From Puniceicoccus vermicola (GTDB taxonomy: Bacteria > Verrucomicrobiota > Verrucomicrobiia > Opitutales > Puniceicoccaceae): 64,000 nt of DNA. The translations under genes and the position numbers were made by a program. Where the stretch lies: assembly GCF_014230055.1 (NCBI RefSeq), contig NZ_JACHVA010000124.1, positions 1-64,000 on the forward strand. Reading direction: 5' to 3'. Each line of letters opens with the position of its first letter. Position 1 is the stretch's first letter. This document shows positions 4,251 through 5,669 of the stretch, one piece after another. A model generated the notes under the pieces. The model was not told the DNA's origin and searched no databases. It was given only the letters and a program-made list of their open reading frames with translations.

Positions 4251-5669
4251 TCAGAGATACTCTTGGTAGAGGGAGTTCAGGTCTATTGTCTTTCCGCACT
4301 GGAGAGCGTGATCGATTCCTATCGCGGCGATGCAGGAAAGGATTCCATCGTCGACTGTGGCTAGAGGTGGCTTGTTATGCAATAGGGTGTCGGCGCAGCC
4401 CGCTTGCCATGATGTCGTCTCCACAAGCATGGAGATCGCAGGGGGTCTCGAAGCGTTCCATGGGGGTCTCATAGCCGATGCGTTTCCATTCGATGATACC
4501 CGAGCAGGCATCGCCCAGGAGGCTCCCCTCGCTGCCGCAAAAATAGAACCGGCGTTCGGGGATGCCCGCATTGGCATTGGAATGAAAGGTCCCGTGGGCA
4601 CCGTTTTCGTATTCGAGAATGGCGACTTGGTTGTTCACTATGTCAGCCTCTCCCCGAAATGGATTAACCCTATGAGGATCGGCCAGGGTTTGATAGGCAG
4701 GTAGCCCTTCAATATTCTCGCCAACCCGAGCGATGTTTTTTTCCTCTGAAGGGACAAAGAAATCAAGTCCGCCGAAACTGGCTACGCGCGAAGGCCGACT
4801 GGAGAGAATCCAGTTGGCTAGATCCAGGTCATGACAGCACTTTTCCAATAAATAGGGTCCGGCGACAGCGCGATGGCGGCGCCAGTTTCCAAAAATGTAT
4901 CCTCCGAGATTAAAATCGAGGGTCTCGTTAAATTCGAAGGAAATTAGTCTTCCGAGTGCGCCAGACTGGACCACCTCACGAATCTTTTGGTAGTGTGGCG
5001 AGTATCGGAGAACGAGGCCAAAAGCAAAGGTGCGTCCGCTTTCCCTGACGGCATTTCTGACCTTTCGGCATTCGCTAAGATCGGTTCCAAGCGGTTTTTC
5101 GCAGAAGACATTTTTCCCCGCCTGCAGAGCTTTGATTGATTGACGGGGGTGATGAGTGTTGGGTGATCCGATGAAGACCCAGTCGACCGACGATCGACCT
5201 ACTAATACCGAATTTAGTAAGTTTTGATCCTTATGGTGCAGCGCAGAATCGAAGCAGCGCAAGGCGCAAGGATCTGATTCGTATCGAGATACGCTCCGAT
5301 CCCTGCAACGCCGCGACCTTCGATTCTGGGCGCATCCCCCTGGGACGGGCGGGAAATGAGCCTGAGCAGCGTTAGCCCAAATGGCACGGGTCTCAGACCC
5401 GCCTCCAATTGGGCCGCCTCGCTCAGACTCATTTCCCATCCCGCCATAACTATCAAAACTTCCTAAATTCGGTATAATTCGTCTTCGGAGGAGCACAGGG
5501 TGAGTGGAGTTCCTAATACGGTTTGCGCAGCGGCTTGTGAAATTGGGTCGGGATCGTAGATGGCTTCGACCACGATTTTTTGGTCTGATGCATTTAGGAC
5601 TTTTTGGATTACTTTGAGCAAACGCTGTCCAGTCCCTATCAAGCCTAGGTGTATCGGTTTCGGATTCAT
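4251..5669 (-). pseudogene. Gfo/Idh/MocA oxidoreductase gene split by an insertion and a frameshift
   Basis: The gene starts at the ATG at 5669 (MNPKPIHLGLIGTGQRL, a Rossmann nucleotide-binding start) and reads to SSEDEL at 5475. There an inverted-repeat element interrupts it. The reading continues in frame at 5202 with VGRSSVDWVFIGSPNTHH, followed by the family motif CEKPLGT and the HDLDLANWIL segment. Near 4375-4400 the frame shifts once more, because the expected C-terminus (PPLATVDDGILSCIAAIGID) is in another frame and ends at 4251. Without the insertion the product would be about 380 residues, normal for this NAD(P)-dependent sugar oxidoreductase family. Two independent lesions make it very likely non-functional, unless the 3' frameshift is a sequence error and the element can excise. 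Confidence 0.85.
5206..5474. mobile_element. MITE-like inverted-repeat element, 269 bp, with TAA target duplication
   Basis: The element is bounded by 23-bp terminal inverted repeats, taccgaatttagtaagttttgat at 5206-5228 and its complement at 5452-5474, identical at 22 of 23 positions. The trinucleotide TAA is duplicated at 5203-5205 and 5475-5477. Inside are two back-to-back imperfect hairpins. One is centred on cgtatcgagatacg (5280-5293), with arms running out to about 5240 and 5332. The other is centred on gggtctcagaccc (about 5389-5401), with arms out to about 5349 and 5444. No transposase is encoded, so movement would need one supplied elsewhere. A three-base TNA duplication is known for some IS5-group elements; that link is only a suggestion. 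Confidence 0.85.

Follow-up and report, generated by a model that had tools for sequence, protein, structure and literature searches.

A miniature transposon in a Puniceicoccus vermicola oxidoreductase gene and its conserved predicted DNA fold

What splits a Gfo/Idh/MocA oxidoreductase gene in Puniceicoccus vermicola, and is the splitting segment a local accident or part of something larger? The question was examined in a window of 64,000 nucleotides (contig NZ_JACHVA010000124.1, positions 1 to 64,000). The initial annotation, made from the sequence alone, described a 269-bp MITE-like element with 22/23 matching terminal inverted repeats, a TAA duplication, two long internal hairpins and no transposase, and that observation was confirmed. 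The element occupies positions 5206-5474. The repeats match 22/23 over the first 23 bp and 29/32 over 5205-5236 / 5444-5475. Only chance ORFs were found in it. The features of the element and of the interrupted gene are collected in Table 1.

Table 1. Positions in the window of the element, its flanks and the interrupted gene
Feature	Position	Strand	Description
Left target-site duplication	5203-5205		TAA
Left terminal inverted repeat	5206-5236	+	TACCGAATTTAGTAAGTTTTGAT...
Hairpin A	5237-5334	+	98 nt; left arm GCAGCGCAAGGCG (5254-5266) with bulge AA (5261-5262); right arm AACGCCGCGA (5307-5316) with bulge AAC (5307-5309)
Short central hairpin	5335-5345	+	TCCC-CCT-GGGA (helix 9 of the alignment)
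Hairpin B	5346-5443	-	98 nt; inverted counterpart of hairpin A; GCGTT... / GCCGCCTcGCTC arms
Right terminal inverted repeat	5444-5474	-	reverse complement TACCGAATTTAGGAAGTTTTGAT...
Right target-site duplication	5475-5477		TAA
5' part of the Gfo/Idh/MocA oxidoreductase gene	5478-5669	-	MNPKPIHLG...SSEDE
3' part of the gene	4375-5205	-	L-VGRSSVDWVF...DDIMASGLRRHPIA, ending at a premature stop
C-terminal remainder in a shifted frame	4251-4420	-	...GKTIDLNSLYQEYL; lies in the ORF 4251-4601

The claim that precise removal restores the gene was tested by deleting the element with one TAA in silico. SSEDEL was joined to VGRSSVDWVF in frame, and the Leu codon TTA was rebuilt. PF01408 then matched continuously (profile 2-118, E 8.6e-20), whereas the split 3' part matched only profile 62-118. 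Homologues in other families of the order, and a more distant one in the same genus, run through the junction without a gap. The gene is not fully restored, however. The rejoined frame still stops early, and the rest of the C-terminus continues in another frame, which shows a second lesion, either a frameshift or a sequence error near 4405-4420. If the lesion is genuine, the gene was decaying anyway. The insertion had also been said to look recent, but this is not shown beyond the intact ends and TAA copies. The comparison with sister strains, which had been proposed as a test, was made only in part. No orthologous empty site was found at this exact locus, and none for the other copies within the sister-genome loci examined.

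A lack of further copies had been named as one outcome that would overturn the MITE interpretation, and the opposite was found. In the 5.2-Mb draft genome (G000) there were 23 copies of 225-270 bp from end to end, three shortened two-ended copies (191, 169 and about 106 bp) and several fragments. This gives about 26 two-ended copies, most of them 94-98% identical, in addition to two relatives with other ends. The 3-bp flanks were identical in 20 of the 25 copies checked, nine TAA and eleven TTA. The genome of a sister species (G001) has about ten further full-size copies, while G002 of the same genus has none. Most other copies do not lie in long ORFs: 21 of 28 have no spanning ORF of 150 aa or more, and several of the remaining seven look spurious. 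Searches of phages and plasmids gave no match to the window element, and only one partial Acidovorax plasmid match to the Acidovorax element described below. The reading of the segment as a MITE was thus supported. What the initial annotation missed is that the inner hairpins, rather than the ends, are the widely conserved part.

Folded as DNA, the element gave a predicted energy of -88.1 kcal/mol against -38.9 (sd 3.8) for shuffled sequences, z -12.9. The predicted structure is a four-way junction of terminal stem, hairpin A, short central hairpin and hairpin B. The inverted orientation of hairpin B gives the element two-fold symmetry, and a covariance model matches it on both strands. In one copy (L022, G000:C118:58045-58319) hairpin B is inverted relative to all others, suggesting flipping between its arms.

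Elements with this fold but with ends such as TACCACTTCTGAAAAATT or TACCACTTCGAAAAAATT were found in the same genome and its sister. A covariance model, R1, was built from 19 elements, in which 51 of 103 pairs showed double changes. R1 matched in 22 of 132 genomes of the order, in 14 genera, and most matches were full length. Two of these genomes were identical over the compared 700 bases to Cerasicoccus frondis and to a Puniceicoccaceae MAG, which places the order in class Opitutia, phylum Verrucomicrobiota. R1 also found members in other classes of the phylum; one candidate, L190 (genome G288), was an unrelated palindrome and was dropped. The architecture spans 254-298 nt. Each lineage has its own ends: TACCACTTTTCACTAAG, GAACCTATCTCAAATT, GAGGGCGTCTAAAAAG, GGGTGTGTCTCGG, GAGCACTTTTCATC and CAGGCTGCTGAAAAAGG.

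GTDB genomes were scanned, though not exhaustively, for the pattern GCAGCGCAAGGCG-N30-60-AACGCCGCGA, and the hits included Verrucomicrobiota, betaproteobacteria and others. Many of the non-verrucomicrobial hits are real hairpins. R1 then matched full length in Acidovorax, Herbaspirillum, Sulfuritalea, Sterolibacteriaceae and Burkholderiaceae, with one-hairpin forms in Lautropia, Lampropedia, Kribbella and Nocardioides; one-hairpin forms occur in actinobacteria. Because these loci were selected by the hairpin-A motif, conservation of that motif in them is not evidence; hairpin B, the terminal stem and the total length (269-275 nt) are independent confirmation. As a negative control, 34 motif hits in viral contigs were all chance coding DNA without a hairpin, and none gave a model match better than E 0.88.

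Base pairing was measured on the 92 distinct rows of a 50-locus alignment, in which most loci were counted on both strands. Of the cells, 89.9% pair, against 53.7% when shuffled and at most 42.1% when slid. Double changes were seen in 96 of 103 pairs, and covariation was 0.833 against 0.194 shuffled and at most 0.126 slid. With one strand per element the pairing figures were 90.2% against 55.7%. The alignment is fitted to the structure, which inflates these numbers somewhat, but the slid and shuffled controls are far below. Only a staggered-bulge motif (C-AA-GGC / AAC-GCC) is invariant, and the best-conserved bases include its unpaired residues: A60 in 50 of 50, A59 in 47 of 50, and A105, A106 and C107 in 50 of 50. 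The three pairs between the bulges (helices 6 and 13) never change type on both sides. G-U pairs made up 3.0% and A-C mismatches 2.7% of cells (149 and 133 of 4,994), and neither strand was consistently favoured, which points to DNA rather than to an RNA made from one strand. Identity averaged 0.35 in the ends and 0.49 in the core, although part of the core figure is the shared motif.

A search for a full-length transposase with the same ends had likewise been named as a test. None with the element's own TACCGAATTTAG ends was found in this genome or its sister. Transposases of PF01609, PF13340, PF13586 and PF13359 were searched in the own and related genomes for TACCG ends, but the own insertion sequences end in CACTACTGTCCAG, CTAGGCCGCGTGGAC or GAATGGCACTAG. 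Paired ends 0.6-3.5 kb apart were absent from all loci collected. The draft assembly breaks at insertion sequences, so absence is not proven and the partner may be missing or extinct; whether this element has an autonomous IS5-type partner is left undecided by these results. Solitary TNATACCGAATTYAG end-like sequences without a partner end or MITE body were observed at G000 C16:23844, C82:172719, C83:40768, C76:37944 and C101:167463 and at G001 C19:24404 (L035-L039, L066). Several start right at a TAA stop codon, and they are more than the reversed-pattern control predicts.

For two sibling types, in contrast, IS5-family transposases (NF033580; PF13340 with PF01609/PF13586) with 16/16-identical ends and TA/TWA targets were found. 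In the genome designated G116, such a transposase ends in GAGGGCGTCTAAAAAG next to TTA and is itself interrupted by a 161-bp MITE (L142/L368, G116:C32:431-591), without the conserved core, that has the same ends and a TTA duplication. These are exactly the ends of the cloverleaf elements in genomes G048 and G063. In G048 two copies of an IS5-family transposase lie beside GAACCTATCTCAAATT, the end of the elements in genomes G032 and G062. The TWA duplications of the present element and the TTA beside the IS5 copy and the MITE in G116 fit the TNA or TA target duplication of IS5-mobilised elements. The IS5 copies seen do not carry the core hairpins.

The explanation favoured, with fairly high confidence, is a non-autonomous MITE that an IS5-family DDE transposase moved in trans into a TAA target inside the gene. 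In this view it belongs to a large family in which the terminal repeats match the transposase of each host lineage, while the interior, two 98-nt hairpins in inverted orientation around a short central hairpin, each carrying the invariant staggered bulges, is a conserved module of unknown function that most likely works as folded DNA (cruciform or single-stranded hairpin) recognised by a transposition or host factor. The analysis itself demonstrates the MITE anatomy, the copy number, the TWA duplications, the structural conservation with covariation across phyla, the DNA-type pairing statistics and the IS5-family transposases with identical ends for the two sibling types. IS5 mobilisation through the TACCGAATTTAG ends and recognition of the folded core are inferences, and no function of the core was assayed. 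A more far-reaching reading, which must be regarded as tentative, is a pan-bacterial superfamily of non-autonomous transposons defined not by its ends but by a folded-DNA core, which is recognised by a conserved factor and survives replacement of the terminal repeats as the elements switch from one IS5-type transposase to another.

Of the alternatives, the one that survives best, though unlikely, is an ordinary IS-derived MITE whose hairpins have no role. Their complementarity would be kept by replication template switching within palindromes, and the similarity across phyla would reflect old shared ancestry and horizontal spread. The equal rarity of G-U and A-C is what DNA-level correction would give, and L022 shows that arms can be flipped. 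However, template switching should erase the bulges, yet the unpaired AA and AAC are the most conserved bases, the pairs between them do not change type on both sides, and hairpin and arm lengths stay near 98 and 34 nt across phyla. The invariant bulges favour a core that is recognised as folded DNA and helps transposition or maintenance over palindromes kept by template switching. It is more doubtful that the core hairpins are substrates of a separate single-strand transposase or recombinase (RAYT/HUH or integrase-like), with the IS5-type ends being secondary. Conserved bulged hairpins are typical of such ssDNA substrates, the core is better conserved than the ends, and one-hairpin forms with the same motif exist. 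Against this stand the 3-bp or TA target duplications at the termini, the IS5-family transposases with identical ends, the absence of a GTAG/CGTC-tagged REP form or attC box in the element and the lack of an identified partner gene. A structured RNA transcribed from one strand is very unlikely despite a very stable predicted RNA fold and strong covariation, since G-U pairs are no commoner than A-C mismatches, their counts do not differ consistently between strands, the element is two-fold symmetric with the model matching both strands, and no Rfam family matched above the gathering score.

Classical bacterial MITEs, such as Correia/NEMIS, Nezha, Chunjie of Geobacter uraniireducens and the QMITEs (PMC10969869), are likewise short and multicopy, with terminal inverted repeats, target duplications, a stable folded form and no transposase. 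These families are described genus by genus and tied by their ends. In the present family the ends differ between hosts, and the interior fold with invariant bulges is conserved across phyla. Chunjie (235 bp, 38 copies) is similar in size; whether it shares the core was not examined. REP/REPIN elements and RAYTs (PMC3116915, PMC3733652) also form imperfect hairpins, often as inverted pairs, in many non-autonomous copies. The present element does not fit the definition of a GTAG/CGTC-tagged palindrome of 20-40 nt without target duplication (PMC3733652), as it has no such tag, has units of about 98 nt and is flanked by terminal inverted repeats and target duplications. Integron attC sites share an imperfect DNA hairpin with conserved extrahelical bases, but no GTTRRRY/RYYYAAC boxes were seen in the element, as read by eye, and terminal repeats and target duplications are present.

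MITEs are usually thought of as decayed insertion sequences whose only functional parts are the ends. Here the ends differ between lineages, while the interior fold is conserved, down to unpaired bases, from Verrucomicrobiota to betaproteobacteria. This makes it directly testable whether bacterial MITEs carry a DNA-structure module that helps them spread, and it provides a covariance model with which such elements can be annotated wherever they occur. The family is apparently undescribed: nothing like it was found in Rfam or in the open-access papers searched, to which the judgement is limited, and as no comparison with ISfinder was made, a genus-level MITE listed there or in other literature could prove to be a member. 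Among the one-hairpin forms, L187 and L198 (genome G285) and L258 (Kiritimatiellales) have a different outer stem (GTGGTGGGCGTTTGG type) and a CCCGCC/GGCGGG mini-hairpin; their ends and target duplication were not worked out. A solitary core hairpin was also observed in a Methylobacter sp. MAG (L273, 5242-5304), in what looks like the 16S-23S rRNA spacer, between two tRNA genes.
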